Shown here piece by piece: positions 11,489-32,846 of a stretch of 36,703 nt of DNA; within the stretch, counting starts at the first letter, position 1; every line of letters begins with the position of its first letter. Position numbers and translations under genes: made by a program. This DNA comes from Deltaproteobacteria bacterium (lineage in GTDB: Bacteria > Desulfobacterota > Desulfarculia > Adiutricales > Adiutricaceae), in the NCBI GenBank assembly GCA_031271165.1, contig JAISWF010000096.1:1-36703 (forward strand). The letters run 5' to 3'. The notes under the pieces were generated by a model. The model was not told the origin of the DNA. It worked only from the letters and a program-made list of their open reading frames with translations, and did no database searches.

Positions 11489-11585
11489 TTTTCACGCCTT
11501 TCAGTAGGGTCAGCCGAAAGCAAGACATTAGAACCTAACTGCAGCCAGGCTTTGGGAGTATTAAAAGACCCAAAGGCAATGAGGA

Positions 11586-12017: not shown

Positions 12018-12043
12018 ACCGACTCCCAAATCTAAACAAAAAC

Positions 12044-12796
12044 TTATGACAGGCAATCGGCGGTTTTACAAGCCGACAACCGGATATGACCGGTACTGTT
12101 GATGATCGACAATCGCCAGTTACTTTTGTCACCCAAAAGCGAGTTGGCAAATCTCATGTCAATAGTGCTGTTGGTAATGGCCTCGCCGCCGGAGGTAAAG
12201 ACAACAACGAAACTGTCGTTGTTGAAATCATCCGCTCCGTAAACCCCGTAGGTCCTGGGACCAACATTAGTTACGGTTTTAAAATTGTTAAACATGGACT
12301 TGAACTGCTCAAAGTTGGACCTGGTCCTAGAGACATTGGCCGGGATCAGATAAGTAATGTTGGTAGCGGGATGGAGTTCAACATCGGTTACGCTGAGCTT
12401 TTTCCAGTTTTTAATGACCCCGGCGGCGTCAAAAATGGCTACCTGGGCCTCAAGCCGGCAGGGATTGGACCCTGAGCCCGATATTTTGGTCCGGGTCAAA
12501 GCAGTGCAGTCCACCAAAACCCGGATGGGTCTTTGATAATTTGAGGCGCTCATTCGGGCCCGCTGCAGGACGTTCATGACCAAGCGGGCATCATTTTTGA
12601 TCTCCCCTCTGGGGACGATGCTCAGGTAAGTCGGGACGGCAATGGCAATTAAAATCCCCATGATCATTATGACGATGACCATCTCAATGATACTGAAGGC
12701 GGCCAGCCATGACCCCTTTGACAAACCAGCCCTAACAGCGGCCGCTCTCTTTAGGTCTGCATCCGGCGGTAATGCGTCTTTATTTAAAGTTACCAT
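12044..12796 (-). CDS. FimT/GspH-family minor pilin
   Basis: A GspH/FimT-type pseudopilin of about 250 aa. Its N-terminal helix reads FSIIEMVIVIMIMGILIAIA, with Glu at +5 after the predicted cleavage point, then VPTYLSIVPRGEIKNDARL, typical of the H-type pseudopilins that carry two extracytoplasmic beta-sheets. The residue before cleavage is Ala instead of Gly, which is unusual for prepilin peptidase, and the leader of about 33-36 residues is long. Two ATGs are possible, 12805 and 12796; the second has AGGA eight bases upstream while the first has only an AGG immediately against it. A cysteine pair near the C-terminus (CKTADC) could form a disulfide. The gene starts closely after pilW ends. 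Confidence 0.8.
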   Translation of the reverse strand: MVTLNKDALPPDADLKRAAAVRAGLSKGSWLAAFSIIEMVIVIMIMGILIAIAVPTYLSIVPRGEIKNDARLVMNVLQRARMSASNYQRPIRVLVDCTALTRTKISGSGSNPCRLEAQVAIFDAAGVIKNWKKLSVTDVELHPATNITYLIPANVSRTRSNFEQFKSMFNNFKTVTNVGPRTYGVYGADDFNNDSFVVVFTSGGEAITNSTIDMRFANSLLGDKSNWRLSIINSTGHIRLSACKTADCLS

Positions 12797-12811
12797 AAGG
12801 GGCATCCTGAC

Positions 12812-13873: not shown

Positions 13874-14008
13874 TCCGTCTCGCTCGTAGGCCCGTAATGG
13901 GCCTTTAACGGCGCCGTTGACGCCGGCTGGTGATGGTCGTAGGCCAAGGGTTAGTCTTTATCCTTATAATCCGCTCCGATGGTTTTGACCAAAGCGAAGG
14001 TTACAGCG

Positions 14009-15145
14009 TTATTGTGGGAGCGTGGTCGCGGACACCGAGGCGGCCTCTGATACCGCTCCTCCCCCAGCAGTCTCCGAGGCGGAAGTCGCCGCATTAACCT
14101 CAGGGGGATGAAGCAAAACACTCAGGCGCTGGAGACGCTCCTGACCAGTCAGAAACAGATCAGCGCGTCGGCCCTTCCAAGCGATCTCCAAACTGGCCGA
14201 CCGCTCCCGAGAATCAAAACAACTGGCCTTAATATTAAACCCTAAAGCCGGGGTCTGACTTTTGACCCAAAGCCCGGTTATTCGATGACAGGTGTCAGGG
14301 GCCAAACGGCTGACCACATACTTAAAGACCCTCGACTCTCCGCCAGTATAGGCAATGTGGCGGTCAATGGAAATGGCCGAGACCATGGAGCCTTGGATGG
14401 TTCTAAGATCGGAAATCAAATTCGCCTCACCGTACTCTGGAACGGCGAACACTGGCACCGGTTCAACATCGGCCAATTGGCGGGCCGATTTCCAGGAGGA
14501 ACTCAAAATAGCTGCTTCGGCCACGAAGATGGCAACAATGACAATTGCCAGTCCCAGACCCCACATGTGCCTGACTTTGGGAGTAACCGGGTCTAAGATA
14601 GCTACCTGCATATAATCGTCTTGTCCTACACCCGGCCGGTAAAGATAATGCTGTTTAGATGGTCCGGCTTTAATCGGGTTCGGTTTCGGCCGTTTGGCCG
14701 GTACCGGTTCGTATTCCAAATAGGAATCGTCAGCCTTGATGACAAAACGCTCCGCACATGACAGACAGGTCACCCAGGCGCCTTTTTTAGGCAGTTTAGC
14801 TAAAGGGACCCGGTAACGTTTAAGGCACTTGGGACAGACCACCGGGTGCATTAATCCAACTGTCTGGGACGTTTCCGAAGCCTTGGGTACATACCGGCAG
14901 ATGGTCATAGTCCCATCTTGACCTTTGCCAAGCACCAGTTGACCATTGCAGGCCGAGCAGGCGGCTACGGTTTCGCCCTCGGGGAATTCCGAGGGCGAAA
15001 CCAGGCATTTAACTCCGCATATCGGGCAGGTAAGTTCAGCAATTTCTGGCAACAATGGCTCCTGGTCTGTCGAAAAACCTATCCAACTTTCAGCCTCAGA
15101 GTCAATTAAGCCGCCAGTTTCCTGACCGAGGCGGCTTTGACTCAT
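14009..15145 (-). CDS. Double zinc-ribbon membrane protein in the pilus operon
   Basis: A 378-aa protein with two MJ0042-type zinc ribbons in its N-terminal third: Cys40/Cys43 with Cys63/Cys66, and Cys104/Cys107 with Cys127/Cys130. Each has a CPxC knuckle, a short spacer with a Pro-rich turn (SPSEFPEG, PLAKLPKKG) and a second CxxC. A single membrane helix lies at about 194-214 (WGLGLAIVIVAIFVAEAAIL). The zinc part should therefore face the cytoplasm and a 160-residue domain the periplasm, ending in a low-complexity Ala/Ser tail. Its ATG overlaps the PilY1 stop (ATGA), so the two are translationally coupled. Zinc-ribbon proteins of this design are common in Desulfobacterota and Myxococcota, but I know of no established role in pilus assembly; the coupling suggests one. 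Confidence 0.8.
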   Translation of the reverse strand: MSQSRLGQETGGLIDSEAESWIGFSTDQEPLLPEIAELTCPICGVKCLVSPSEFPEGETVAACSACNGQLVLGKGQDGTMTICRYVPKASETSQTVGLMHPVVCPKCLKRYRVPLAKLPKKGAWVTCLSCAERFVIKADDSYLEYEPVPAKRPKPNPIKAGPSKQHYLYRPGVGQDDYMQVAILDPVTPKVRHMWGLGLAIVIVAIFVAEAAILSSSWKSARQLADVEPVPVFAVPEYGEANLISDLRTIQGSMVSAISIDRHIAYTGGESRVFKYVVSRLAPDTCHRITGLWVKSQTPALGFNIKASCFDSRERSASLEIAWKGRRADLFLTGQERLQRLSVLLHPPEVNAATSASETAGGGAVSEAASVSATTLPQ

Positions 15146-18100
15146 TCGCTACCCCCAACGTTGCTGAAATCCAGTACCTCACGCCAAGATATGATCCCGC
15201 CTTTGTACACTTCGGGCTCAGGGAGTTTAAAGACGGTGACCGTACCGTCACTGTTGACAATTTCAAACTGCCCGCGTTTACCCTCATTAGTCCCGGTGAC
15301 CACAAAAACTGCGGCCGCCGATTTTCCGCCCACCGAAGAGACGTGATCGGAAACGGCCTGGTGTCCATCATTATCGGGTAAAGCCGAATCCTGGAAGGAA
15401 TTAATTGACACGAAGGATTGATTACCAAAATCAGGCTTGGGAAGTCCAGAAAAAGTATCCAAAATATAGCCATAACTGTGTCCAGCGCTGCCGCAGGAAA
15501 CCGACCTGGGCAAAAACGTTGACAGAGCCATTATTGAGCCGCTACCGCCAAAGGGCGCCACAGATGGTTGCTCTAAGATCATTTCATAACTTAAGCCTTC
15601 CCACCAATCGGTGTCCTTGTATTTTTCGTCATCCGGAATGTCGACCTCATTGCTGTCAATATAAGTGGTCGAATTGGTCTTAAGGGCCCGGCGGTACCCT
15701 TGGTAGGAATCGGATAAAATGGCGTTGGCTACGGCGGTGTAATCGTTGAGGGGTTCCCCATCGACAACCAGAGCCGAGGTTTGACCATCGCTAGCCACCG
15801 ATTTGACTGTGGTATTGGGATAGACGGCAATGTTGCTGACATCAAACAGAGACGACTCATTGACCTTGCCCAGAGTCAAATTGCCGGAGGCATCGACTGG
15901 CTCTTTGATGCCGTAGAGATAGTTGACATGGTTAAGCTGGCAGGCTTTGAATGCGGCTGAACTCAGCCCTTCACAGACGCGGCTGTCATCACTTGACCAG
16001 TAGCGGCCGGAACCAAAGATAACCCACAACCGTCCTCTGGCGTCAACAGTAGTATTGACCGCTCCAGAAATCGGACGGTCGGCTTCAAAGAAAACTTTGA
16101 AATTGGTAGCCCAGGTGCTCGGGGCGCCGTCCATGTACAGGCGCCAGATGCCGCCTTTATCAATAGCGCCGTTATTGCCATACCTTTTGGAGACGCAGAA
16201 ATCGTCGGGCCGTGAGGGACTCAGGTAAGGCGCTGATTCGACGCTGGTATTGAGGCACAACAAGTCGTTATCCAAAGCTGAATGGGTCAGACTGAAGTAA
16301 GCCAAGACGTTGCGCCAGCTCACCAACCCATCTGCGTTCTTCACCGTGTATTGGGGAGCAGTCAAAACCTGAGAGTTGGTGAAAAAGCTCTTGGGCCGCT
16401 TGGTATCAATGACGGTAACCCCGCCTTCTGGACCGGTGACAGCGTTAAAGACAAACAACTTGGCCGACTGGTTGCTCAGGCCTTTGTAGGCCAGCGGGCC
16501 GTCCTTAATGGTCGAGGTTATCCCGGTTTTGGCGTCATAGTTATCGTAGGTCGGGCCGCTTCCAACCAGGACATACCAGTTATCACCCTGGGCGTTATTT
16601 CTAACCACCGTGGGTCTGGCCACCACCAACCCCAGCTGCGGGTGAGTAAAGCGCCACAACAAGACCGGCTCGGTGTCGGGATCGGTCACGTCGAGAGCAA
16701 AGACCTCGGAGTAGGAGTACTTGGACCCATTAGTATCCAACTCAATGGCCCGGCCGCCAAATCTAAGGCTGCCAATGATAATCGTCCGCCACGGTCCGCC
16801 TAAAGCCTCGCTCTTGGTGGGGTCCTTTATCTCAACCACCGTTGGGGTAAGGTCGAGGTAGTAGCTGTGGGCATAATCAAGCAGGGGCAGCCACTGCAGG
16901 TGCGGCAAAAGCGATTGAGGAATAAAAGCCCACATCTCACGTCCGATATAGGATTTGGCCTTGTCGGTGTAGCCGTTGTAACCTTCCTTAAGGGATATGG
17001 GGAAGCCCATATTGATGGCATGGAGCATACCATCATTGGCCCCGACCACGGCCAAGTTGCGCCGCTTGCTGTACCGGACTTTGTATGTGGCATACGATCC
17101 ATCGGAGAAAATATAATCGTAGTTGGAAAAAGGCGTCCCAGATATGATCGGCTGGGAATTGATGATATCACCCAACCGGCAGACTATGGGCTGGCCTTTG
17201 GTGAGGTCAAACCACGGTGACAGGGTCTGGCGGGAACGCCAGCCGGCCTGATCTTTGCCGAGAATAAATTCAATAAGGCGGGTAGCGGTGTTGCTGTCGG
17301 TCTGAAGCATATACGGGGCCAGTTTCAAACCGTCAGTCGACCTTAGAAGGTTAGAATTGCCGAAGGAAAAGTTCTTTTTGGCGAACAGATCCTCATGGTA
17401 GTAATAAACCCGGCGCTTGGACGTATCAAGTTCTTTAAAAGTAGTTCTGGGTTGAAGAATCTCGTCGTCGGTCAAAGACGATAAATCGCGGCTCAGGTTC
17501 CAGACGGTCCTGAGGTCCCCCAAAGACACGTACTGCAGCCTCGATGGGCTCAAATCTTTGTAGTTTTGGCCGTTTTGGTCAGGATAGACGCGGGCGATGG
17601 TTTTAATGTCGGATATATCCCGTTTGTCATAGCAGGCTTGTCTTTCAGTGGCTGATGACAACTTTTGGCAGTCAACAAATTCGACTATCCAGTCGCCTTT
17701 GCTGGTGCTGCTGCGCTCGGAGCCAGGGTCGCCTTCAAAGCCGCAGTCAAGATCGAGCTGACCGTTGAGGTTGGTATCCTCACGCATGTTGCCCCAAAGG
17801 TCAATAAACAGGGCATAGGTACCGCCAAGCCATTTAATCTCAGGAACTTCCGGACTTTCAGCCGGCGAATGCACGGTTTGGAAGTAGGTGCGCACGGTCA
17901 CCCCGCCGCCCAAGACCGAGTTAACCGAAGCTGAGGTGGCGGTACCAACGTTCATGGTACTCATAATCCTCTCAAAAGCCTCCGAGAGTTTCTCTTTGAG
18001 TTCGGAGAGGGTGTTGGCGTAGAAATAATTGTCGGGAATATCGTCGCCATTGGGTTCCGGAAGAACATCAAACTCGTTTTCCTGGGGAATCCCGTCGTTG

Positions 18101-21100
18101 TTCTCATCATTGAACCCGCCGTACTTGGCCGCCAGCCACAAGGGATCAGGTAGGTAGCGAGGCGGCTCAATGGTTTCACCGCTGGCGGGGAAGCGGAAAA
18201 ACCTGGTTGAGGTCAGGGGGAGACGGGCACTGCCGCAAAGCGGAGTGACTATGGCATGGGGCCGCTTGTCAGTATCGGAAATGAATCCAGGCATCTGCCG
18301 ATTGCCGGTAACCCCGTCTTTAAAGAGCTTGGGATTACTTTCGGAAGCGGTAAAGTTCTGCGGTTCAATATCATTAGCCGTCCCAGCCCGATAGCAGGTT
18401 GGCGGAGTATTAAGCGGATGGGCGATGGTCATCAGGCCAAATTCCTGGCCCTTGTTGTTGACGCTGACAGTGGTGCCCTCATTTAAGACCTTCTGGGGGC
18501 TTCCACCCATATAGTTGTGCTCGTTTTGGATCTCCAGATAGGTCCCCTCACCATTACCCAGGGACCGGCTGGGGTTTTCAATACCGGAATCGTAGTTGAG
18601 TCCTCCGTGAATGTAGTAACCAATGTTCATCGGCATATTGCGATCGGAGTAGTCAATTTTTTCTTCCAAAGAGTAGACAAAGATAGCTACGCCGATGGCA
18701 TCTTTCATCTCTTCAGGCTTGGTAACCTTTTTATAAATCCGTCCGGGCTCCCCGATGTAGCCGTAAACGTCCATGACCTCCTCGTAGCCAACTTCGGCGT
18801 AAGGCCGGTCGATAAAAAGGCTCTCGGTCTCGTCAAAAACGTAATCAATGGGGGAGACGCCGCCTTCCTTATGGATTATATTGTTACTGGTATAATCCAA
18901 GAACTTTTCCGCTCCAGGGAAGGTCCTCATCAGGGCCTGACGTCCGGCTTTACCACTACTGCTGTACTGGTCGCCAAACTCGGGGTAAATGAGCCGGGCA
19001 TAGCTCTGCATGAGCGTCGGATCAGGATCTGACTTGGAGGTCAGGATGCCGGTTGGCCGGTGAAAATAGGCCGGGAGCTGAGACCAACGCTTGGGCATGT
19101 AAGCTGCAACATGGAACTCTTTGGGACGCTCGCTGCTAAAAATGTAGTTGGGCCGCCCAGCGTGATCCCAGCTGCGGTAAACCCACTCACGGTGACGCTT
19201 AAAGGGCGCCGCTGCATAACGGCCGTCTTTGAAATACTCGTACATAATCCTTTTGGCAACTTGGCGTTCTTTGGCACTGCCGCAGCCGGCCACCAGATCC
19301 CGATAGGTTTTGTCGTCGCACCGACCTTCTGAGCTTTCGCGGTCATTAATGACTGTATTGTCAACATCGGGGTTGTAGGCGGCATACTTTTTAGCGGTCG
19401 GTTCTGTCTTGTGGGTCTTGGGATAACCATAATTAAAGGGCTGATGAAAGTAGACAAAGGAAATATCGCGCTCATCGTCGCGCGACGGGTACCCTTCTTT
19501 GTTGCCATGACCAGACTCGTAACGGAAGCTCTCGGTCAGGGCCTTGTTGGCGTTGGAATCACACTCACCGGTATAGCATTCGCGGATCAGATCAAAGTAA
19601 TAGCGAACCGGAGCGTCAAGCTGATAGTCGTCGCCCTCACCCTCCAGTCGACCGGTAAAACCGGCGAAAACGGCTCCGCTGTAGACCTGCCCTTGATCGT
19701 TAGCCCGCCACTGGATGATGTTGGTGGTAAAGGGTCCGACATATTGAATGCCTTGAGGGTCAGTACTTCCATCTTTGCAATAATCGCTGACTCCGTCATT
19801 GTTACCACAGGGCCAAGCCACGCTCATGGCCACCGGGCTGATGGAAATGGTATGGCCTTTGGCGGTAAGGTTTATTTTCGGGAAAATTGAAGGCAGAGCC
19901 ACGGCAAAGGTCTGAATCTGATTTCCGCTTTCATCAAAGTCGTGGGTATTGCCGTAGTAAGCCACCGCCGCTGCCGCATATGTTCCATAGGTCTGAGGGG
20001 TGGACGGACACAAACCGCGAACTTGGGACAGAGAGGTCAGGACCCGAGGTATGCACAGGTTGGTGTCATCGTCCGAGGCCGGCTGCCGAGACGAGTTGTT
20101 GACGGTGATGGCCCCAGGGGCACCGGTATTAAGGTTGGCGATATAGAAAGACTGGCCGCTAAAGCCCTCTAATTTAGTAATGACATCAAGGTAGGAACCC
20201 ATATCAAAGGACTTGGAAAGACCGGCCGCATTTTTAAAGCTTTCAGGGGCCGCAAAGCCGAGGTTGAGCTGGGGGATAGCGCCAGCCCCGTCGCGGTAGC
20301 CGTGAGGGGTACCTGGCAGCATGTCGCCGTCATGACTGACAGAGGTGGAGCTTAAAAGCAAGATCACCGGCTTGAGGCAGTCGCCGGACCCGCCGTACAA
20401 GGGTGATTTCCACGGATCAAACCCGGCGCTCCCCAAACGGGGAAGGGCAACGCTCTCTTGAGACTCCATAAATCCTGGGTTGGGCCAGACTGGATAGGAG
20501 GCAAAGTACAAAAGACCAGCGTAGAGCATCTCGCCGATCGGATTGCCAAAGTTACTCTCTAATGGATCGCTCCAGCCAGCCCCGCGGGCAAGCATTTGAG
20601 TGTCCACTCCAGTGCGGGCCTCATTGAGGGGGGTAAGCCGGCTTTTGGTAACCTGAGTGATACTATCAAGCATCAGAAAGATGTTGTCATTAACCGTCCC
20701 CTTATAGGTCCCGTCGGCATTGATCTGGTTTCTGATCGAAGTAACATTATGCCGCAGCCAGCCGGCATCCCAGCGATTTTGGTTGTTAAAGGCTCCAGTT
20801 AAGAGCCCGAAGAGGGCCTGATCGAGCTTGGCATACTTCTGCAACAGGCCCACCGGTTTAAAATTTTCACCATAGCGCTCGCAATAGTCGCCAGCCTCTA
20901 TGAGGTCCTGGCTGGGAATAGCATTTTTGTTGGCTGGTCTTTTGAGCCCGGCCTTACCTCGGCCATAGTCCAAGCGACTGGTAAAATCGTAGACCTCTTC
21001 TTTGGTCAACTGCCGGCAGGCTTCAACGGTTACCTCCCAGTAGGCTGTTTTTTGTTGGTCGGCAAAGGAGTTAAGGATATAAAGAAGCGGCGTGTACTGA

Positions 21101-22131
21101 TGGCGGTATTTAGGCATAAAATAGGCACTATATGACCTAAAACCCTCATGGTTGGTAACGTCTTCTTTTTGACGCATAAACCAGATATTGTCATAAATGT
21201 AAAAACGATGACCGCTTCGGCCGTAGCTATGGAGCCTCCGGTAATGGCCGGCCCAGCGGTCGGGATCGATGGGGGTGTAATTAACTGAGTCGTAGTAGGG
21301 AGCCCCTTCGTTGTAGTCAAGCCAAAAATACTTGGTAAAGTCGTCATAGCTCCAGACGCCAGCGTTTTCGGCTATGTACTCGGCCGCCAGATAGGTTGTC
21401 TTCGGAGTATCAACCACCCTCTTGCCGCCATAAAGCACTTGCCGGATGACGTCGATCCTGGAACTGGTCATCCAGTTGAGCCAGTTCCCGCTCCAGAGCC
21501 TGGTTTCAGTATAGGTTGACCACTTGGCGGGATCTTTGTCAGTCATTTTTTTGCCATGAGAATCCATGTCCTGGGAACCGTCGACTTTGTTTTTAGCCGG
21601 ACATATTCCAGTGGCTGACCTTGGAGCCCGAAAGCCAGGACGTCCGACCGGGGATCTTTCCCAGCCATTGGCGATTTCTTTGGCCAGACGGCTAGAGTCT
21701 CTATTGGTGCCGGTAGAATCTTCTACGTCCTCAATGCTGGGCCCTAATCTCACAAAATGACCGCGGTCGATCCAGTTGGGAGTCTTGTTCCAATCTTTAA
21801 TATGGTCGGTAGCCGAACCAGCATTGGTGCCATCTTTCTGCCAATTGTAGGTGTAGCAGGAATACGGGTCGAAAATCCCGGTGTAGACCACGGCAGGATT
21901 AAACCCCACATCGGTATTACCGTCGCCATCATGATCGGCCGGGGCCACGTAGGCCGGGGCATAAATGTCAATATCCTTGCTTAAAACCATTAGAATGGCT
22001 GGTTTTGTTGCACCCACCAAAAGAGGAGGCTGCGAATAATAATCAGCGGCCTTCGGAGGGATAGCCGTAGCCGGAATGGAAACGGCTAAAATTAAGCCAA
22101 AGATAAAGGCAAAGACAGTCGATCTAATCAT
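15142..22131 (-). CDS. pilY1: PilY1-like type IV pilus tip adhesin, very long
   Basis: About 2,329 aa, roughly twice the length of Pseudomonas PilY1. A signal peptide covers about residues 1-23 (ending IPATA). An Asp-rich calcium-loop-like motif DHDGDGNTD follows near residue 66, another, DENNDGIPQENEFD, near 1340. The block AFERIMSTMNVGTATSASVN near 1390 is the conserved segment preceding the PilY1 C-terminal domain. The C-terminal beta-propeller starts around 1690 with VVGANDGMLHAINMG and then GREMWAFIPQSLLPHLQWL, the hallmark of PilC/PilY1. The segment KPVILLLSSTSVSHDGD lies near 590 where relatives have a von Willebrand-like part. ATG at 22131 is preferred, with AGGTG eight bases before; an in-frame GTG at 22140 overlaps that site. 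It heads the minus-strand pilus operon and is expected to cap the pilus tip and mediate adhesion or surface sensing. Confidence 0.93.
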   Translation of the reverse strand: MIRSTVFAFIFGLILAVSIPATAIPPKAADYYSQPPLLVGATKPAILMVLSKDIDIYAPAYVAPADHDGDGNTDVGFNPAVVYTGIFDPYSCYTYNWQKDGTNAGSATDHIKDWNKTPNWIDRGHFVRLGPSIEDVEDSTGTNRDSSRLAKEIANGWERSPVGRPGFRAPRSATGICPAKNKVDGSQDMDSHGKKMTDKDPAKWSTYTETRLWSGNWLNWMTSSRIDVIRQVLYGGKRVVDTPKTTYLAAEYIAENAGVWSYDDFTKYFWLDYNEGAPYYDSVNYTPIDPDRWAGHYRRLHSYGRSGHRFYIYDNIWFMRQKEDVTNHEGFRSYSAYFMPKYRHQYTPLLYILNSFADQQKTAYWEVTVEACRQLTKEEVYDFTSRLDYGRGKAGLKRPANKNAIPSQDLIEAGDYCERYGENFKPVGLLQKYAKLDQALFGLLTGAFNNQNRWDAGWLRHNVTSIRNQINADGTYKGTVNDNIFLMLDSITQVTKSRLTPLNEARTGVDTQMLARGAGWSDPLESNFGNPIGEMLYAGLLYFASYPVWPNPGFMESQESVALPRLGSAGFDPWKSPLYGGSGDCLKPVILLLSSTSVSHDGDMLPGTPHGYRDGAGAIPQLNLGFAAPESFKNAAGLSKSFDMGSYLDVITKLEGFSGQSFYIANLNTGAPGAITVNNSSRQPASDDDTNLCIPRVLTSLSQVRGLCPSTPQTYGTYAAAAVAYYGNTHDFDESGNQIQTFAVALPSIFPKINLTAKGHTISISPVAMSVAWPCGNNDGVSDYCKDGSTDPQGIQYVGPFTTNIIQWRANDQGQVYSGAVFAGFTGRLEGEGDDYQLDAPVRYYFDLIRECYTGECDSNANKALTESFRYESGHGNKEGYPSRDDERDISFVYFHQPFNYGYPKTHKTEPTAKKYAAYNPDVDNTVINDRESSEGRCDDKTYRDLVAGCGSAKERQVAKRIMYEYFKDGRYAAAPFKRHREWVYRSWDHAGRPNYIFSSERPKEFHVAAYMPKRWSQLPAYFHRPTGILTSKSDPDPTLMQSYARLIYPEFGDQYSSSGKAGRQALMRTFPGAEKFLDYTSNNIIHKEGGVSPIDYVFDETESLFIDRPYAEVGYEEVMDVYGYIGEPGRIYKKVTKPEEMKDAIGVAIFVYSLEEKIDYSDRNMPMNIGYYIHGGLNYDSGIENPSRSLGNGEGTYLEIQNEHNYMGGSPQKVLNEGTTVSVNNKGQEFGLMTIAHPLNTPPTCYRAGTANDIEPQNFTASESNPKLFKDGVTGNRQMPGFISDTDKRPHAIVTPLCGSARLPLTSTRFFRFPASGETIEPPRYLPDPLWLAAKYGGFNDENNDGIPQENEFDVLPEPNGDDIPDNYFYANTLSELKEKLSEAFERIMSTMNVGTATSASVNSVLGGGVTVRTYFQTVHSPAESPEVPEIKWLGGTYALFIDLWGNMREDTNLNGQLDLDCGFEGDPGSERSSTSKGDWIVEFVDCQKLSSATERQACYDKRDISDIKTIARVYPDQNGQNYKDLSPSRLQYVSLGDLRTVWNLSRDLSSLTDDEILQPRTTFKELDTSKRRVYYYHEDLFAKKNFSFGNSNLLRSTDGLKLAPYMLQTDSNTATRLIEFILGKDQAGWRSRQTLSPWFDLTKGQPIVCRLGDIINSQPIISGTPFSNYDYIFSDGSYATYKVRYSKRRNLAVVGANDGMLHAINMGFPISLKEGYNGYTDKAKSYIGREMWAFIPQSLLPHLQWLPLLDYAHSYYLDLTPTVVEIKDPTKSEALGGPWRTIIIGSLRFGGRAIELDTNGSKYSYSEVFALDVTDPDTEPVLLWRFTHPQLGLVVARPTVVRNNAQGDNWYVLVGSGPTYDNYDAKTGITSTIKDGPLAYKGLSNQSAKLFVFNAVTGPEGGVTVIDTKRPKSFFTNSQVLTAPQYTVKNADGLVSWRNVLAYFSLTHSALDNDLLCLNTSVESAPYLSPSRPDDFCVSKRYGNNGAIDKGGIWRLYMDGAPSTWATNFKVFFEADRPISGAVNTTVDARGRLWVIFGSGRYWSSDDSRVCEGLSSAAFKACQLNHVNYLYGIKEPVDASGNLTLGKVNESSLFDVSNIAVYPNTTVKSVASDGQTSALVVDGEPLNDYTAVANAILSDSYQGYRRALKTNSTTYIDSNEVDIPDDEKYKDTDWWEGLSYEMILEQPSVAPFGGSGSIMALSTFLPRSVSCGSAGHSYGYILDTFSGLPKPDFGNQSFVSINSFQDSALPDNDGHQAVSDHVSSVGGKSAAAVFVVTGTNEGKRGQFEIVNSDGTVTVFKLPEPEVYKGGIISWREVLDFSNVGGSE

Positions 22132-24230
22132 GATTGGCACCTACAAGAAAGTTATGTGATCGGCAAAAAATGAACATGAACTGGTAAAAACAAATATTTA
22201 TTTTTTATTATTATTTTTTTTAATCAACAGGCAAATATTATTTCCAGAGATATCCCTCAGCTTTCCAAAGCTTAGTCCGCCCAAATTTTTTATAGCAAAA
22301 AATATGCCAAACACCTCAAATGTTTCCAGACCTCTCTGAAGCACCATCGGCCACCAAGTCGTCTCCAAACAGACGCCGTGAGCAGATTGGTCCGATCAAT
22401 TTTTTATTTCGGAGGCACGAAAAGACAGGCTATTGTGAATTAAGCCAGACAGTCACCAAGAGCCTTAACGGTTTTTGTCTAACATATCAATTATCGATAA
22501 ATATTATTTTAAAGCAATAATAAGTTTATTTTGAGTTCTAAAAGTAACTATAAAAATTCAAAACAGCAATTTAATTATTTAATATAAATATCAAAAAATA
22601 TTCGCCATATAGAGCATCACATACACACTTAATAGTATATATTTAAACTATTAATCAATATTAACATAAAAATAAAAGTATTTTTCTGTTAATATACCTA
22701 TAAAAATAATTTTTTATAAATATTTAGCCTGATTTACTTATCAAAAACTAAGAAAATATGATTTTTAATATGCCATTGAGTGAATTTGCAGGCCTCTAAA
22801 TTCAACTGGACCTTGTCATTTTGCGTACTAAAAAATGGTAGTTCACAGCATTTTTTGTTCACCAAAAACTCCATCTCTCAGCCAGTCGAGTTCTCCAAAA
22901 ATTCCCTAGAAAAATCATCGCCCCACCGACCGTCAGCAAAAAAAAACCGCCTTTAACCGAGCCTCAATAAAAGTAGATTTCTGCGACCTTTTGCGCTATT
23001 ATTAAGCCTTATTTTAAACTATAATAAAATAAAGTCTAAACTTTGAAGCCGATTACCGGTCTGGCACAAAAAAATATGGCCAATCCATTAAGTCGTTACC
23101 TTATGTCAGAGATTTTAGTAAGTTCGCCCCCAAAAAGCACCCTTGAACTTACGATTGCCAAGTTGGCGGCGGAAAAATAAGATTTAACGCTTAGTTATGC
23201 CGCAGCCATCTCAAAAACCAAATATGCTTATGGCCATGAAAAAAACAACGGCGTCCGAACTTGCCAAAACGATCGTTTGGTCCTTTTCGTCCATCTCGGC
23301 CTAAGATACCCGATTAACCTGACTCAAATAGTCTTCTGAAGTGAGTCTGGCCAACTAAGTCACTATGGCCAAGTTAACTTTAGTTGTTGAAAAAAGGCTG
23401 ACAATCCACCTTAAAAAGAGTAAAATAACGACTGGTAACCGGGGGCGGCTCTGAAAAATGGAGTTGACCAGCCGGCGGGCTACCGTGCCCCTAAAGGGGA
23501 CCGACCAAAAAAAAGCTGGACATTTCACCCAATTAACTCAACAAAACCAAGCTTGGCCAGGCCGTCCTCAACTCTCGCTCCAGGTCCTGACCTTGGGTTA
23601 AGGTAGCTAAATGCTCTCCAAAGGTATGAAAGATGTGGTGCGGGGGGGTGTCAGGGTGGATTTAATCCAGCTTGACCTACATTTCCGAGCCAAACTAGAT
23701 TATAATAGCAAATATCAGTGGGCATTACCAGTAAAAAATGAAAATTTTTTTAAGGCCTATGAAAATGTTCATCAAAAACGGCCTTGACTGCATTTTTACC
23801 AAAAATTGGCCAGCCTAAAGAGGTTAAAAGAGCTTTTAAACATCTAACGGCTCTAAGTGGCCATTGATATTATTTAAGATTTGACCCTTGGTCTTATTGC
23901 TAGTTCTGAAACAGCTGGTTTCGAAGTTGTTGACAGGGAAGATTAGGTGAAGTGCGCTTCTGAAGCTGATTTTGGCGGCTATGACCTTTTTCGGAATACG
24001 ACCTAGAAATACCAAAAAGGCTATCGTAGTCCAACAATATACTGCTTTAATAATTATCACAATATATTTTAAAATGGAGAAAAAAATGAATTTATAGATA
24101 CATTTTGCCGATCAAGTTAAGGTGACTGCGACTGTATTTTCTGGACGACCGGAGGACTAGTTATGGTCACTATATTTTATCTTAACCACATAATATAATT
24201 TCTTATTTATTAGACTAGATTAGGCGGTAT
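22132..24230. other. 2.1 kb intergenic region, largely AT-rich
   Basis: Contains the upstream regions of the divergent PilY1 and Sel1-repeat genes. From about 22190 to 22760 it is very AT-rich with no open frame of substance. From 23070 to 23340 the plus strand reads as a continuous frame broken by one TAA, possibly a decayed gene (see findings). A small hairpin with CCCC and GGGG arms at about 23488-23499 has no T run. The frame at 23836-24060 on the minus strand is unconvincing. Confidence 0.4.
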
Positions 24231-25275: not shown

Positions 25276-26577
25276 TCAGCTCAGAAGAGCTGCCGCCGCC
25301 GCTGGATTGGAGGGCAGATAAAAATGGATGTAACTGGCCGTCAGCCGACCCAAGCGGTAAACCGCTTCCCCGGGTTGGGGACGGCCATCCTGCCTGACTC
25401 CGAAAAGAGAAGGCTCTAAATCCATGATTATCTCTGAATGATGAAATGAGTGCCCCCTGAGCGGGCCTTGCGGAAAATTGGCGCTCATCAACCCCAGGCC
25501 CCTGAGGCTTCCGGTCAGCTCGGCCCGTCCGGGCAGGAGTCCGACCATGGGGAGCTGCCGGCCCTGATAAGTCAGCGATTCCAATAAATATAAAAGCCCG
25601 CCGCACTCAGCCAGAATCGGGCGGCCGGCCCGGTGGTGAGCTCGAATGTCGTCTATGAGGAGGCGATTTTCGGAAAGAGTTTCTAAATGGAGTTCCGGGT
25701 AGCCTCCAGGGAGATAGAGGGCGTCACAACCCGGGAGACGACTGCCGGCCAGCGGTGAGAAAAAAACGAGGCTGGCCCCCATCTCGGTCAGCAGATCAAG
25801 GTTGGCCCGATAAAGAAAACCAAAAGCCTCATCTTTGGCCACGGCCACGGTCAGTGATTTTAAAGAGGCCGATGAGACGGAAACATTGCCCGGCTCGAAA
25901 ACGACCTCTGGAGGCTTTAGTCCAATCTGCTGGCTTTCCAACTCCCCGGCCGCCAAATCCAGTCTCCGGTCGATGTCGGTCAGTTCAGAAGCCTGGACCA
26001 GCCCCAAATGACGACTGGGCAGTTCTATATCCCCTCCCCGCCTCAAGGCCCCGTACCAGGTAATCTTTTCCGGAAGCGATTCCCTAAGAAGCTTGGCGTG
26101 GCTCTCCCCCGCCACCCGGTTGGCCAGAACCCCAGAAAAACAAAGCCCCGGACGAAAGACACTCAGCCCGAGAGCTACCGCCCCAAAGGTCTGGGCCATG
26201 GCCCGGGCGTCAATGACCGCTAAAACCGGGAGTCCAAACTCCCCGGCCAAGTCGGCCGCCGAAGGACGGCCGTCAAAAAGCCCCATCACCCCTTCAACCA
26301 AGATAACATCGGCTTCAGCGGCCGCTCGCCACAAAAGATGCCGGCAATGCTCCAAGCCGACCATCCAAAGATCGAGCTGATAGACAGGCCCCCCACTGGC
26401 GGCTTCCAAGACGGTGGGATCCAAAAAATCGGGCCCGCACTTAAAGACCCGGACCCGGCGGCCGGCCCGGCGATGGAGACGGGCCAGAGCAGCGGTGACC
26501 GTGGTTTTGCCTTGCCCCGACGATGGAGCTGAGATCATGACCGCCGGGCAGACCCGCCGGCCGCTCATGACTTCCAT
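25276..26577 (-). CDS. cbiA: Cobyrinate a,c-diamide synthase
   Basis: A glutamine-dependent amidotransferase of 433 aa that uses ATP and glutamine to amidate the a and c side chains of cobyrinate (CbiA) or hydrogenobyrinate (CobB). The N-terminal dethiobiotin-synthetase-like domain carries the P-loop SSGQGKTTV (residues 19-27), KCGPDFLDP and VEGVMGLFDG. The C-terminal class I amidotransferase domain carries LPGGYPELH, the nucleophile Cys325 in AECGGLLYL, HSFHHSE near 376-382 and the catalytic His418 in ASYIHFYLPSNP. The gene overlaps the 3' end of the CbiC gene: the ATG at 26568 forms ATGA with the upstream stop and the ATG at 26577 lies nine bases earlier, so either may be the start. CbiA rather than CobB is favoured by length and by the anaerobic context. 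Confidence 0.93.
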   Translation of the reverse strand: MEVMSGRRVCPAVMISAPSSGQGKTTVTAALARLHRRAGRRVRVFKCGPDFLDPTVLEAASGGPVYQLDLWMVGLEHCRHLLWRAAAEADVILVEGVMGLFDGRPSAADLAGEFGLPVLAVIDARAMAQTFGAVALGLSVFRPGLCFSGVLANRVAGESHAKLLRESLPEKITWYGALRRGGDIELPSRHLGLVQASELTDIDRRLDLAAGELESQQIGLKPPEVVFEPGNVSVSSASLKSLTVAVAKDEAFGFLYRANLDLLTEMGASLVFFSPLAGSRLPGCDALYLPGGYPELHLETLSENRLLIDDIRAHHRAGRPILAECGGLLYLLESLTYQGRQLPMVGLLPGRAELTGSLRGLGLMSANFPQGPLRGHSFHHSEIIMDLEPSLFGVRQDGRPQPGEAVYRLGRLTASYIHFYLPSNPAAAAALLS

Positions 26578-27230
26578 GACTCGGCCTTGGCCAGGGCGGC
26601 CAGGGCGTTGATGGCTGCGGCGGCAACGTTGGAGCCGCCCTTACGGCTAAGGTTGGTGATGAAATAAGGAAGGCTGGAGGCGGCCAAGGCTCGCTTGGAC
26701 TCCAAAGCGTTGACAAAGCCCACTGGGAGCCCGACCACCAAGCGAGGCACTGCCAGTCCGGGGTCGGCTCCGAGGCGCTCTAGCAAGCGCAATAAGGCCG
26801 TGGGAGCATTTCCAAATACCCAAATCGCCCCCTGGGCGCCGACTTCCCCTGTCAAAGCCAGATCAACGGCCGCCATGGCCCTGGTCAAACCGGTCTTTTC
26901 CGCCTCAGCCTTGGTGGCGAGGTTATCAATTAAGCAAACCAGCCGGTTGGGAAATCCGCCCAACCGCTTGAGGTTTATGCCGCTTAAGGCCATTTTGGTG
27001 TCGGTCAAAACTACCGCCCCCTCTCTAATGGCCTTGACCCCAGATTCGACGGCCCCCGGGCTGATTACCAAATCGCGGGCGTAATCAAAATCGGCCGAAG
27101 TGTGGATCAGTCTCCTGACGACAGTCCAACTCTGAGGGTCCCAGTTATGAGATCCAGCCTCACTGTCGATTATGGCAAAACTTCTGGATTCTATGTCGGA
27201 GGGACCCAGTTTCCAATCTAATTGTTCCAT
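26565..27230 (-). CDS. cbiC: Precorrin-8X / cobalt-precorrin-8 methylmutase
   Basis: A 221-aa enzyme, close to the family's usual 210 residues, that moves the C11 methyl group to C12 to give (cobalt-)hydrogenobyrinate/cobyrinate. Visible signatures are PSDIESRSFAIIDSE (residues about 10-24), RRLIHTSADFDYA with the catalytic His43, ALSGINLKR, VFGNAPTALLRLLE and VGLPVGFVNALESKRAL. The next gene downstream, cobyrinate diamide synthase, uses its product directly, and the two overlap, so they form a logical two-step operon. GAGGA about seven bases upstream supports the ATG at 27230. No cobalamin riboswitch was recognised in the 331 bases before it. Confidence 0.93.
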   Translation of the reverse strand: MEQLDWKLGPSDIESRSFAIIDSEAGSHNWDPQSWTVVRRLIHTSADFDYARDLVISPGAVESGVKAIREGAVVLTDTKMALSGINLKRLGGFPNRLVCLIDNLATKAEAEKTGLTRAMAAVDLALTGEVGAQGAIWVFGNAPTALLRLLERLGADPGLAVPRLVVGLPVGFVNALESKRALAASSLPYFITNLSRKGGSNVAAAAINALAALAKAESWKS

Positions 27231-27561: not shown

Positions 27562-29661
27562 TTAAAACTCAAAGGTCATCTGAATGCTGCCGCTAACACC
27601 ATCACGACGGCCCAGCCAGCCCTGAGTGCCAATGGTAAAAGTCATCGGAACCCGGCCGCTCCGACGATACGACAGACCAAGCTCGGCTAAAGCGGTTCCA
27701 CCGGAGGTCTTGAGCGTTTTAATGCGAGAGCCTTCCGTAACAGCTTTGGTCTGCCCGTCAAACTCATACTCATACCCGAGCCCGGCCAATAACTTAAAAC
27801 CAGGGCTGAGGTTGGCGCTAAAACGGCTGCCAGCTCTCAGGCGATGGGAAGAACTTCTTTCAAATGCGACCGGAGTTGACTCTCCCACCACCACTTCGTC
27901 ACCCGCAAGGCTGGTAAACAGGTATTTTCCGTAAAGATCCAAGGTCTTTGATTCAGCGAGATTAAAGATGCGGCCGACCGCCAGATGCCCGCCAACATAC
28001 TGACCGTCTGAGTCGAAGGTAACCTCACCGGGGCTATTGATAAAATCAAAGCTGCTGAAATCCAGCGTCAGCCGGCCTCCCCTGAGGCTGGCTTCCAGGT
28101 AGTTTTTACCAAGGCCGGGGCTGTCAAAATCAAAACGACCCAAAACGCCGCCGCCTATGTACTTAATCTGGCCGTCGCTGTCAACGATTTGGTTTTTCGG
28201 AAGGTTCATGCGGCTGTCAAAACGCCCTTGACCGACCTCTAGAAAACCTCCCAAGGTCAGGATGCCAGAGTCCAAAAAGCTGTTGCAATCAACACCGACC
28301 AAGGCGTTGAGGCCCTTAAGCTCGAATCTGTCGGCTATATCATAACGGGAGACTCCGCCACTGACGGTCATAAAAACCGCCGGACACGGACTTAAAAATG
28401 GCCGGCCCATGGCCGCCCCTAAGCCCTGATCGGCCACTTGGTCGAGACCCTGATTGAGGAAGGCCAGACCCGAAGAACGCCCAGCCGAAACTGTCTCCAT
28501 CTGGGGTTGGACCTGAAAACCCCTGAAGACCGCCGTCAGGGTGTCACTGCCAACTACTGGCTTGGAAAGCACCAGATCGTAGTTAAGCTCAAAATTGAGC
28601 TTCTTTAAGCCCTGGACCGTTTGCTGGGTAAAATCATCATCACGTATGGCGCCGTCGGCCTTAAAGAGTACAAACTCATAGCCTTCCTCAGGCATGGAAC
28701 CCTCATACATGTCGAGACTTTCGATTTTTGCCCCGCGACCGTTTAAATCTCCGAGATGGACTTCACCGGTAACATTGAGGGCCACCGAGCCAGTGGGCTG
28801 AAGCGGATCGAGAACAAAGGCGAAGTTTTCAAAGCCGCGGACGTTATTGCCTACCTCAATTCCGCCCGATTTGGGGTTAACTACCCAGAGGCGGTTTCCG
28901 GTAAAGACATCACCGGTGGTGTTGGAATTTAACCCACCGTGGACCGAGCGCCCAACAGAAGTATTGCCGCGGAGAATAACGGTATTGTAAATTGCCTGTC
29001 CTTGCGTTAAGCGCACATTGTCTCCGCCAATAACATTTAGGGCCACGGAACTGTCAATGATCTCAACCCGGTTATAGTTGGCTGTACCGGTCGACTCTAG
29101 CGTCGAAGCGGTGACTTCGTTATGACCGCCAATAACGTAATGGGCTTGGCTATTTTCCAAGATTAAGGTGTTGTAGTCAGCTTGCAAATTGCCGCCGCCG
29201 TTGATCCGGTTAAAGCCGCCATAGGCATTTTGGCCTACCCCAAACTGTGCCTGGCGGAGGATAATGGTGTTGCGGCTGGTTTTAAGCGAACCGTTAAATA
29301 AATCACCTGCCTGCCCGATCTGGCCGAAACCGCCGAAAATAGGAGTCAGGGCTATCAGCCCGGTCCCTTCGACCTTGACCAAGTTGCCTAAAACCTCGCC
29401 CTCAGCACCGTTTCCCCCATAAAAATACCCACCAGCGCCAATGACATTGAGATCAGCTGAGATGAGGAACTGATTATTGGAAGATGACGTCAGAGGAAAT
29501 AGCCACGGGTTGAAAGAGTCGTGAGGAGGGTAAAACGAAGCCGCCGAACCAGGGCCACTCCAAACCAGATTTTCGGCCTGAACGACCGGATTTACGACCA
29601 GAGACAGACCCACAACAATCGCCAAAGAAAATATAAACCGTCGCAACAATTCAGAGACCAT
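27562..29661 (-). CDS. Autotransporter (type Va) outer-membrane protein
   Basis: About 699 aa. A signal peptide of about 29 residues ends VVQA before ENLVWSG. The passenger (about 30-400) is rich in Asn and Gly and contains imperfect repeats in which a YNTVIL-like strand is followed by an IGGxN-like turn (DYNTLILENSQ...GGHN, NYNRVEIIDSS...GGDN, IYNTVILRGNT...GGLN), as expected for a beta-helix stalk. The linker SAGRSSGLAFLNQGLDQVAD near 410 is typical of the segment before the translocator. The last 280 residues form an autotransporter beta-barrel ending in Phe (MTFEF), the outer-membrane insertion signal. ATG at 29661 is chosen: GGAG lies eight bases before it and the signal peptide starts there; the frame is open to 29706. 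No protease triad or adhesion motif is evident. It has its own terminator. Confidence 0.85.
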   Translation of the reverse strand: MVSELLRRFIFSLAIVVGLSLVVNPVVQAENLVWSGPGSAASFYPPHDSFNPWLFPLTSSSNNQFLISADLNVIGAGGYFYGGNGAEGEVLGNLVKVEGTGLIALTPIFGGFGQIGQAGDLFNGSLKTSRNTIILRQAQFGVGQNAYGGFNRINGGGNLQADYNTLILENSQAHYVIGGHNEVTASTLESTGTANYNRVEIIDSSVALNVIGGDNVRLTQGQAIYNTVILRGNTSVGRSVHGGLNSNTTGDVFTGNRLWVVNPKSGGIEVGNNVRGFENFAFVLDPLQPTGSVALNVTGEVHLGDLNGRGAKIESLDMYEGSMPEEGYEFVLFKADGAIRDDDFTQQTVQGLKKLNFELNYDLVLSKPVVGSDTLTAVFRGFQVQPQMETVSAGRSSGLAFLNQGLDQVADQGLGAAMGRPFLSPCPAVFMTVSGGVSRYDIADRFELKGLNALVGVDCNSFLDSGILTLGGFLEVGQGRFDSRMNLPKNQIVDSDGQIKYIGGGVLGRFDFDSPGLGKNYLEASLRGGRLTLDFSSFDFINSPGEVTFDSDGQYVGGHLAVGRIFNLAESKTLDLYGKYLFTSLAGDEVVVGESTPVAFERSSSHRLRAGSRFSANLSPGFKLLAGLGYEYEFDGQTKAVTEGSRIKTLKTSGGTALAELGLSYRRSGRVPMTFTIGTQGWLGRRDGVSGSIQMTFEF

Positions 29662-30833
29662 AGTACTTCTCCAAAAATAGCCCTCGCCACCGAAATATCT
29701 TTCCAACAGCAGGGTTCTTATCCCGACCGCAAAAGCAGTCGGGCCCGACAGCTGGCCAACTACTAATCAATGTTGCCAGCCGTCTCAATAACAGACGCCC
29801 TGGCCCCCTTAATCTCGACGAGGACCAGAGTAATTTGATCGGAAAGGCTGTCTTTCCGCTTTTTTCATAGAGCGTTATAACGACTATGGACTGCCAACGG
29901 CAAACCAAACCTGACCCAGTTCAGATGTGAATAGAAAAATACTCAGTAATCAGCCTGTTAATAAATTGTAATAAATCCGTCTCCCATCCAGTCCATAGCC
30001 GCAGCCATCACGAGCTCTCAAGAATAAATACACTTGCCAACAAAACCATTCAAAAACCATTGCCGAGGCCCAATTATCAGCGTCCAAGCTCAACAAGATG
30101 ATGGCGACGCCAAGCTCCTCTAATCAGATCCAATCTGGTTTAACCTGAAATTTGGCACAGTTTGATGATGCCGCCGAAAACAGTGACGGTAGCCGTGACC
30201 AAATAATATGTCATAACTGACAGTTATCTCTAAAAAATGTCACAAATGATTCCAGGAAATAATCAGATGTTTCAGGCTTTATCAAGGGATTTTCGGCAAA
30301 ACATAGCCCCCGGCCAAAGGAGCAACTGGTCGGCCCAACAAAAAACAAGAAAAAAAGTATTTTAAATTTGATAAGGGGATTTTATGGCCAATTTTGGGAA
30401 AAGATTTGAAGCCTGAGAAAAGCCTGAATTGGAAATGAAATATTTTTTGCCAAACTTTACCGGTAGTTACTCTTACAAATATGGTTTAAAATATGAAACC
30501 AAATTTATCAGCGGTTTTTTCTTTGCTTTTGTCGGGACTTAATTTCTTTTTTTTTTACTACTTGACCGGCTCTTTGGCGTTTTTCTTAAAATTTCAGCAA
30601 CTTACCCAATCATGATTTTTCCTGATCGCCGCCTAATTTTTTATTCCGCCGAAAACTTTGGGCCGGACCTATTATTGCTTTTTGATTGACAGCCCGCCAA
30701 AGACCTGAGTATTATTTAAGCAGCTTTTCCACTCCAACCAGTTTAATAAAAACCCCAAAGAGCTATTGCGGCTTTAAAGATCAGAAGCGGCCGGCTTTGT
30801 AGCCGAAAATTGAGATTAAGGAGAAAAATCCCC
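29662..30833. other. 1.2 kb intergenic region between divergent genes
   Basis: Carries the upstream regions of the autotransporter (minus) and the BtuF-CbiZ gene (plus). The part from about 30200 to 30600 is AT-rich. I searched by eye for a cobalamin riboswitch (B12 box, GCCACTG) before the BtuF-CbiZ gene and did not find one. An AAGGAG ribosome-binding site stands at 30818-30823. Confidence 0.45.
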
Positions 30834-32846
30834 TTGAGAGCAAAAACTGCCACCCAATGTGTTATTATTTTTTTTCTCTTATCGCTGGCGGCCCCGGTTT
30901 TCGGGGCTTTGACCGTTACCGACGACTTAGGACGCCAGCTACGATTGTCAAGGACGGCCCGCCGGGTTTTATCAATGTCCCCGGCCGCCACCGAGATTAT
31001 CTGCGCCCTGGGCGCCGAATCAGCTCTGGCTGCGGTCACCACTGAAGACGAATATTTTCACGGGATAATCGGCGTCCCCGTTGCGGGTCCTCCGGGAGTG
31101 CCAGATGAAACAAAGCTTAAAAAATACCGGCCTGATCTGATAATTTTAGACCCAGCGCTGGCCACCCAGGCGGCCCTGACAACCCTGACTAACTGGGCTC
31201 CGGTATTGGTTTTAGGCTCTGGCGGCCCTCTTACGGCCGCCGAGTCCCGGGTAGAAACACTGGGCGTTCTTTTAGGCCGAAAAAAAGAAGCGGCCGCCGT
31301 CTTAAATGAATCAAGAGAACTTTTGGCCACCGTAGCCCTTAAAACCGCTAAAGTGGAAAAGCGCCTGGCGGTCATCCGTCTGCATGGACAAAACGGACGG
31401 CTTTACGTGGCCGGAGCTGGCAGTTGGTCCAACCTGTTGGTCGAACTAGCCGGCGGCAGCGCACCAATCGGTCTCCCAAGCGGTCAAATGGTCGAACTGA
31501 GCCCAGCCCTTTTGTCCGACTTAAACCCTGATCTGATGTTCGCCTGCGGCCGTGACCACAAGTCGATTGACAGAGTTCTTTCTTCGGGCTCTTTTAAAAA
31601 AATCCCGGCCGTTAAAAACTCCCGCCTCCGATATTTTCCCTGCGCCTTAACCGACCGAGCTGCCGCTCACGTAGGATATTTTGCCGCCTGGCTGGCCAGC
31701 ACCATGTACCCGGTGGATTTCGGAAAGCCCGAAAACTTGGTCCATCCCCAGGGTATCTTGCAGGAAAGAGAGCTTAAGCTCGACCAACTACCGTTTGTCA
31801 CCCGGGCCCGGGTAGTCTATGCCCGGCAGAGCGACTTTGTTCAAAAATCTCTTTTAATTGATTTAGCCGCCCCTCTTTCGGTAATTTCCACTTCCGATGG
31901 CCCTCTGGACGGGGTCAAGGTCATTGGCAACTGCTCATCTCCGCCCATGGTTTGGGATATCCAGCACCAGGGCGGCTGGGAAGCAGATCTAGAGGCCAGA
32001 TACAAGCTTTTGGGGCTCGATCAAAAGTCCTCGGCCCTCATGTTTACCGGGGCCGACATGGACAACCTGGCCGTCAAAACCGTGACTGAATCCTCTATGA
32101 CCGTTACCGCCCTGGTCACGGCCGGAGCCGAAAGTAATGCCGTCCGGACCTCACGCGACGTGGGGGCTTACGTGCAGCCAGGAACCATCAATATTATTGT
32201 TTTAACCTCCCGGAGTTTATCTGAGGCCGGAGCGGCCAGGGCCCTGATCACCATTACCGAAGCCAAGACGGCCGCCCTGTGGGACTTGGGCATCCGAAGC
32301 TCTCAAACACCGCTAACTAACCCTGCCACCGGCACCGGGACTGACAGCATTATCGTGGTTTCTGGAGGCGGCCGAGGTCAACCCATCGACTATACCGGGG
32401 GCCATGCCAAAATCGGCGAACTCATCGCCTCGGCTGTCCACGGAGCGGTAACCGAGGCCCTGGCTAAGGGCAACGGCAAAGCTCCGGGCCGCAATCTGCT
32501 AATTCGCCTCCGGGAAAGAGGCCTTTATCATGATGAGCTTTTTACCGGCCCCGCCGCCGATCTGCTCACCAAAATCCCCGGTTGGGCCGACCAAGTAGCT
32601 TTGGTTCTTTTGGATTCACCGGCCGCTGGTTTTACTCAAAACGCCCTGGCCCTTGATGATGCGCTAATCATGCAGCAGGCCGATGATCTGACTACTTTCC
32701 GCAGTCAATCTCTGGAAGTGGCCTCCCAAATCGCCCAAACCAAGGTTACCGCCCTTTTTGACTTGGCCGCTCCATCCCTGCCGCCAGCCTTAAAGCTAGC
32801 CTTAGACTCAGTGGGGACCGGCTTAGCGCTCAAAAAACCAAACTAA
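30834..32846 (+). CDS. Secreted BtuF-like corrinoid-binding protein fused to CbiZ amidohydrolase
   Basis: About 670 aa, two recognisable parts. After a signal peptide (residues about 1-24, ending PVFG) comes a type III periplasmic binding domain of the BtuF/FhuD fold (about 27-297): TVTDDLGRQLRLSRTARRV, SMSPAATEIICALGAE, then KYRPDLIILDP and ALLSDLNPDLMFACG. From about 337 to 545 is a CbiZ-like adenosylcobinamide amidohydrolase: TAGAESNAV, PGTINIIVLTSRSLSEAG, ITEAKTAAL, ATGTGTDSIIV and YTGGHAKIGELIASAV. CbiZ cleaves the aminopropanol arm from incomplete corrinoids so they can be rebuilt. A 115-residue tail is unrecognised. The TTG at 30834 is preferred because AAGGAG lies 10 bases before it; an in-frame TTG at 30810 is upstream of that site. 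No BtuC or BtuD gene follows. The fusion is seen in sequence; joint capture and remodelling is inference. Confidence 0.88.
   Translation: MRAKTATQCVIIFFLLSLAAPVFGALTVTDDLGRQLRLSRTARRVLSMSPAATEIICALGAESALAAVTTEDEYFHGIIGVPVAGPPGVPDETKLKKYRPDLIILDPALATQAALTTLTNWAPVLVLGSGGPLTAAESRVETLGVLLGRKKEAAAVLNESRELLATVALKTAKVEKRLAVIRLHGQNGRLYVAGAGSWSNLLVELAGGSAPIGLPSGQMVELSPALLSDLNPDLMFACGRDHKSIDRVLSSGSFKKIPAVKNSRLRYFPCALTDRAAAHVGYFAAWLASTMYPVDFGKPENLVHPQGILQERELKLDQLPFVTRARVVYARQSDFVQKSLLIDLAAPLSVISTSDGPLDGVKVIGNCSSPPMVWDIQHQGGWEADLEARYKLLGLDQKSSALMFTGADMDNLAVKTVTESSMTVTALVTAGAESNAVRTSRDVGAYVQPGTINIIVLTSRSLSEAGAARALITITEAKTAALWDLGIRSSQTPLTNPATGTGTDSIIVVSGGGRGQPIDYTGGHAKIGELIASAVHGAVTEALAKGNGKAPGRNLLIRLRERGLYHDELFTGPAADLLTKIPGWADQVALVLLDSPAAGFTQNALALDDALIMQQADDLTTFRSQSLEVASQIAQTKVTALFDLAAPSLPPALKLALDSVGTGLALKKPN

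Follow-up and report, generated by a model that had tools for sequence, protein, structure and literature searches.

The known CbiZ enzymes, from archaea and Rhodobacter sphaeroides, are described as free-standing intracellular proteins, and cobamide remodelling too has been described as taking place within the cell, a link between CbiZ and uptake being no more than a suggestion. The bond that the enzyme cuts is the amide adjoining the aminopropanol linker, and the suggestion that its activity is coupled to uptake has been published (PMC7733943). Its genes are found within corrinoid transport operons (PMC4285132, PMC11697101), and in Dehalobacter starved of corrinoid the CbiZ proteins of a transporter operon increased 58- to 80-fold (PMC4285132). 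A targeted literature search of the most relevant papers yielded no description of a CbiZ that is secreted or fused to a binding protein, and the domain combination may already be listed in protein databases.

Here we describe a gene from a Desulfobacterota metagenome-assembled genome (MAG) in which a class III substrate-binding domain and a CbiZ domain lie behind a probable secretion signal. The fusion belongs to the same Pfam family as the CbiZ of archaea and R. sphaeroides, keeps their conserved residues and would be expected to cleave the same bond, but it is apparently secreted and joined to a binding domain. With BtuF and other class III binding proteins it shares fold, family, signal peptide and, in its relatives, a B12 operon context; it differs from BtuF in carrying a C-terminal enzyme, in going unrecognised by the BtuF model and in being distinct from the BtuF encoded in the same operons. 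Like the ABC ATPase–CbiZ protein of Cytobacillus spongiae (WP_233812020), it ties CbiZ to a component of corrinoid-type transporters, although the Cytobacillus CbiZ lies on the cytoplasmic side, because it is fused to the ATPase, whereas that of the Desulfobacterota fusion would lie on the periplasmic side. CbiS, which combines CbiZ with an alpha-ribazole phosphatase, is also a bifunctional CbiZ fusion, and its model NF038002 matches ours in part (72.1 bits against a cut-off of 250, model positions 59–208 of 335); the phosphatase half of that model finds no counterpart in the Peripla_BP_2–CbiZ protein, which places it outside CbiS. The Hmu haem uptake system, with its membrane-bound CobN homologue HmuS (PMC12583661), offers a parallel in that a tetrapyrrole is processed at the membrane during uptake, and operons related to ours pair the fusion with an apparently secreted CobN homologue resembling the HmuS haem de-chelatase, but the chemistry of the fusion would be amide hydrolysis and its presumed ligand a corrinoid.

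Anatomy of the fused gene

The window, a stretch of 36,703 nucleotides read on the forward strand, is one whole contig (C7) of a 3.72-Mb MAG with 283 contigs and 81.6% completeness. Relatives of this genome found by name are MAGs of Deltaproteobacteria and Candidatus Adiutrix; the Adiutricaceae, putative acetogens within the Desulfobacterota, live in termite guts (PMC9137090), and a termite gut is the probable origin of this MAG as well. The features discussed below are as follows.

25276–26577, minus strand: cobB/cbiA, cobyrinate a,c-diamide synthase (NCBIfam NF002204, over its cut-off)
26565–27230, minus strand: cbiC, cobalt-precorrin-8 methylmutase (Pfam CbiC, E = 1.6e-66), divergent from the fusion gene
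30818–30823, plus strand: Shine–Dalgarno-like AAGGAG, read directly from the sequence, 10 bases 5′ of the TTG at 30834
30834–32846, plus strand: gene for the putatively secreted Peripla_BP_2–CbiZ fusion, a single open frame of 670 amino acids plus stop
30834–30905, plus strand: predicted Sec-type signal peptide, residues 1–24 (hydrophobic core, VFG|A site; kept in relatives)
30906–31703, plus strand: class III substrate-binding domain, residues 25–290 (PF01497; PDB sequence relatives; Foldseek)
31704–31862, plus strand: linker and start of the CbiZ region, residues 291–343 (interval between the Pfam matches)
31863–32450, plus strand: CbiZ (adenosylcobinamide amidohydrolase) domain, residues 344–539 (PF01955; conserved residues retained)
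32469–32843, plus strand: C-terminal helical extension, residues 546–670 (hhalign; helices in the model; common to the cytoplasmic CbiZ of the lineage)

A second TTG, at 30810, is a possible alternative start. By inspection, the N-terminus reads MRAKTATQCVIIFFLLSLAAPVFG|ALT, with a basic n-region, a hydrophobic core (13-residue hydropathy mean of 2.74) and a cleavage-like VFG|A site. A signal-like segment directly precedes the binding domain in 73 of 75 relatives from two samples (36 of 37 and 37 of 38), one of the two exceptions having masked bases at its N-terminus, whereas stand-alone cytoplasmic CbiZ typically has none. From this inspection and conservation, the fusion is probably secreted by way of a Sec signal peptide. 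The conservation of the segment across relatives likewise disposes of a misread N-terminus; a pseudogene is ruled out by the open frame and a dN well below dS, and an assembly artefact or chance fusion by the fact that dozens of genomes carry the two domains within a single frame.

The binding domain matches Peripla_BP_2 (PF01497) over residues 47–268 (E = 2.6e-18; 66.7 bits against a cut-off of 27.5), and its fold resembles haem-binding proteins with Foldseek TM scores (target) of up to 0.86 (2r7a); score and fold together place it among the class III substrate-binding proteins. The BtuF equivalog NF002894 gave no match to the window protein at E 0.1, and the best NCBIfam binding-protein model was that of the haem protein IsdE, far under its cut-off. 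The sequence does not fix the ligand, the nearest models and folds being those of haem and siderophore proteins. Contact and docking residues of E. coli BtuF lack conservation even among the separate BtuF proteins of the relatives, so their state in the fusion argues neither for nor against corrinoid binding and docking. A corrinoid is the presumed ligand.

The motif FPCALTDRAAAHVGYF (window residues 268–283) is strongly conserved among the fused binding domains and places a Cys and a His, possible cobalt ligands, where E. coli BtuF has SDWFERASPR. At four loci (L065, and L066, L072 and L098 of genus g7) the encoded, apparently secreted fusions have only half a binding domain, reduced to the C-terminal lobe before CbiZ; at L066 and L072 the fusion is preceded by a gene resembling those for acyl-CoA dehydratase activases, and at L066 a cobalamin riboswitch also lies upstream. 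At L086 the signal is of the lipoprotein type and a binding domain is not recognisable. The capture arm would therefore be dispensable in some lineages.

The C-terminal half matches CbiZ (PF01955) over profile positions 2–191 of 191 (E = 4.6e-49; 167.4 bits against a cut-off of 27). It is the slowest-evolving part of the fusion, with 79% identity to the same-genus orthologue and a dN of 0.145, against 57% and 0.389 for the binding domain, in a comparison in which dS is near saturation. AlphaFold2 models of five sequences were usable for the binding domain and the tail, the CbiZ part being too uncertain (mean pLDDT 70.7, pTM 0.57). The model predicts a helical tail, at fair to good confidence. 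When 74 fused tails were combined into a profile, it aligned with the C-terminal extension of stand-alone CbiZ from the same lineages over 126 columns (hhalign probability 93.8%, E = 1.8e-7), so that the tail is part of this CbiZ subfamily.

A preliminary description, made from the letters alone, had proposed a signal peptide, a BtuF-like domain, a CbiZ domain and a 115-residue tail of unknown nature in one frame at 30834–32846. The frame, the order of the Pfam domains, the secretion signal and the CbiZ assignment are all borne out by the results above. The BtuF-like domain stands as a Peripla_BP_2 domain, and the equivalog NF002894 lends the name BtuF no support; since relatives carry a separate BtuF beside the fusion, the label 'BtuF–CbiZ fusion' denotes fold and context and not a proven docking role. 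The tail (about 546–670) proved not to be unknown, being homologous to the extension of cytoplasmic CbiZ.

Genomic context, distribution and descent

The fusion faces cbiC and cobB both in a same-genus genome (L060) and in the window, where the gene for an apparently secreted protein lies in between. That protein (27562–29706, minus strand, 714 residues) has no Pfam match, and similar-looking proteins lie near the fusion at L069, L075 and L078. The window also encodes a 539-residue carbon–nitrogen hydrolase (8834–10453, minus strand) that belongs to the nitrilase superfamily and has an additional half at its C-terminus, homologues of which are close to the fusion gene at L002, L004, L068, L076, L136, L140 and L147; it is possibly a further corrinoid amidase or amide-processing enzyme. 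A cluster of pilin-like proteins with PilV- and GspH-type N-termini and a 2332-residue PilY1-like protein occupies 10793–22140 (minus strand).

No cobalamin riboswitch was detected at the gathering score across the window, and none emerged within the 1.5 kb surrounding the start of the gene when the threshold was relaxed to E = 5. The window, a whole contig, holds neither a BtuC nor a BtuD gene. Elsewhere, the genome carries eight cobalamin riboswitches, five FecCD permease genes, one of them (contig C88) downstream of such a riboswitch, and several TonB receptors whose scores against the B12 receptor model lie under its cut-off. The C88 permease makes it plausible that a corrinoid importer is encoded elsewhere in the genome; the earlier statement that no transporter genes adjoin the fusion holds, and of the two possibilities it named, a transporter encoded elsewhere or none at all, the former is the probable one. 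The nucleotide-loop assembly genes for CbiB (C283), CobS, CobU and CobT are present, together with a second CbiZ (contig C250, 445 amino acids) whose start is not signal-like and whose C-terminal extension is homologous to the tail of the fusion. With an ordinary cytoplasmic CbiZ also in the genome, the secreted one would be an addition.

Among orthologues, every one of the 6 loci scanned in genus g17 has a cobalamin riboswitch upstream on the same strand, as do 13 of 30 other phylum loci, and BtuB-like receptors, BtuF, BtuC and BtuD recur as neighbours, in agreement with the corrinoid role originally suggested for the window protein. Two operon types recur. In type A, a cobalamin riboswitch is followed by a BtuB-like receptor (at several loci), the fusion, a separate BtuF-like protein, BtuC and BtuD (L081, L083–L085, L087, L088, L131, L133, L138, L145, L154 and L161, some lacking one or another element within the stretch); for the neighbours at L133, the models of vitamin B12 BtuF, BtuC and corrinoid ATPase rank best or second best. 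In type B, the order is riboswitch, TonB receptor, small membrane proteins, fusion and a CobN homologue, with the riboswitch seen at L146, L151, L153, L155 and L159, and either not in the scanned stretch or in an unscanned one at L130, L132, L137, L152 and L164. The CobN homologue adjoins the fusion, or stands one short gene away (L153), at about ten phylum loci and L003. All eight type B CobN homologues that are clearly readable have a signal-like N-terminus and most a C-terminal hydrophobic segment, so they are probably periplasmic and membrane-anchored. Genes for CobN homologues with the signal-like segment lie near the fusion at L132, L137, L146, L151, L152, L153, L155 and L164, several of these loci with a riboswitch.

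A full-length profile built from 13 fusions and run on 395 genomes drawn evenly across the Desulfobacterota matched 63 of them at E 1e-60 or better, with matches spanning both domains in 52 of the 395 genomes from 20 families (counted by rows). Nearly all other genomes of the window's own family encode CbiZ in a long frame, often with a shorter CbiZ too. As this whole-genome sample was confined to the Desulfobacterota, the fusion may exist in other phyla. The viral contigs searched held no relative of the fusion, and the plasmids searched held separate CbiZ, separate binding proteins and an ATPase fusion, with no fusion of CbiZ to a binding protein among them. Three tandem fusion genes, two of them in overlong frames, occur at L079 (4088–11611, plus strand; genome G032).

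Of the 101 CbiZ domains placed in a maximum-likelihood tree, the 76 that carry the label 'fused' (L086 included) lie together on one side of a branch with support of 96/96 relative to the other sampled sequences; this one clade among the sampled sequences agrees with a single origin of the fusion. Among its nearest relatives are two apparently secreted stand-alone CbiZ proteins of about 275 residues (L166, 4239–5060, plus strand; L167, 3819–4652, minus strand), the latter encoded near BtuB-, BtuF- and BtuC-like genes. Their position suggests, without proving, that secretion preceded fusion.

Proposed corrinoid capture and cleavage during uptake

We propose, with a probability of roughly two in three (0.68), that the fusion is a periplasmic protein that captures and cleaves corrinoids in the course of their uptake, a reading in which binding, catalysis and their order are inferred. 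In its favour stand the two Pfam matches, the widely kept signal-like segment, the spread of the fusion over the phylum as one clade, the retained and constrained CbiZ residues, the riboswitches and B12 transport genes beside orthologues, the secreted stand-alone CbiZ among the nearest relatives and the nucleotide-loop assembly genes of this genome. Sec export would place it in the periplasm, where a BtuB-like TonB receptor would deliver a corrinoid to be held by the class III binding domain. The tethered CbiZ domain would then hydrolyse the amide bond beside the aminopropanol linker, removing the nucleotide loop or aminopropanol to leave cobyric acid, which a BtuFCD-type importer would bring inside for CbiB, CobU, CobT and CobS to reassemble into a cobamide carrying the lower ligand native to the cell. 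Cleavage in the periplasm would thus come before import, as the preliminary description also had it, and the corrinoid would be handed over between the two domains. Against this reading count the window gene itself, which has no riboswitch near it and no transporter adjoining it, a binding domain whose ligand is not fixed, and a capture arm that some lineages apparently do without.

The type B operons raise the alternative that the corrinoid is dismantled so that its cobalt or its ring can be salvaged, CbiZ stripping the nucleotide loop and a periplasmic CobN removing the cobalt. The CobN homologues beside the fusion, their signal-like N-termini and, in most of them, a hydrophobic C-terminal segment fit this, as does the precedent of HmuS, a membrane-bound CobN homologue that takes iron from haem (PMC12583661). 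Other operons, however, carry BtuF–BtuC–BtuD instead, the lineage keeps its nucleotide-loop assembly genes, and CobN is not adjacent in the window. To our knowledge, moreover, no CobN acts on finished cobamides, and we consider dismantling unlikely. A broader picture for the Desulfobacterota would combine TonB delivery with stripping of the nucleotide loop by the fusion and, in many species, exchange or removal of cobalt by the anchored CobN, so that B12 would be taken apart outside the inner membrane; we regard it as speculative and, as a whole, doubtful.

Alternatively, the CbiZ domain could be catalytically dead and serve as a second binding domain, making the protein a two-site corrinoid carrier or periplasmic chaperone. 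We know of no established catalytic residues for CbiZ, and a PDB sequence search with the CbiZ region returned chance-level matches only and no CbiZ structure, so that sequence by itself does not tell an active domain from an inactive one. Yet every column invariant or almost so in cytoplasmic CbiZ is retained in all or nearly all fusions (38 fused against 22 other sequences), among them T429, N435, R438, GTIN 450–453, E476, K478, ATGTGTD 498–504 and H524, and the strongest constraint falls on the CbiZ part, which makes a dead domain rather improbable. Least credible, and very improbable, is that the fusion serves the importer as its binding subunit, docking on BtuCD with CbiZ cutting during or after ligand transfer. 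Its class III fold and the transporter genes in its operon in several families speak for this, but a separate BtuF encoded in those operons scores higher with NF002894 (144.9 and 142 bits, under the cut-off of 234), and BtuCD is missing from many loci.

The separate BtuF that coexists with the fusion in type A operons means that docking on BtuCD is not required of the fused binding domain, and it argues that this domain serves the enzyme as a capture arm and is not the docking subunit of the importer. The architecture points to trimming of scavenged B12 variants on the outer side of the inner membrane, ahead of uptake, and a CbiZ joined to a putatively secreted binding protein, under riboswitch control in many species and present in at least 20 families, makes the coupling of CbiZ to uptake directly testable. 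If this is true, surveys that count CbiZ as cytoplasmic misplace the remodelling step, and neighbours in anaerobic communities such as those of termite guts and sediments could meet cobyric acid and released lower-ligand fragments.
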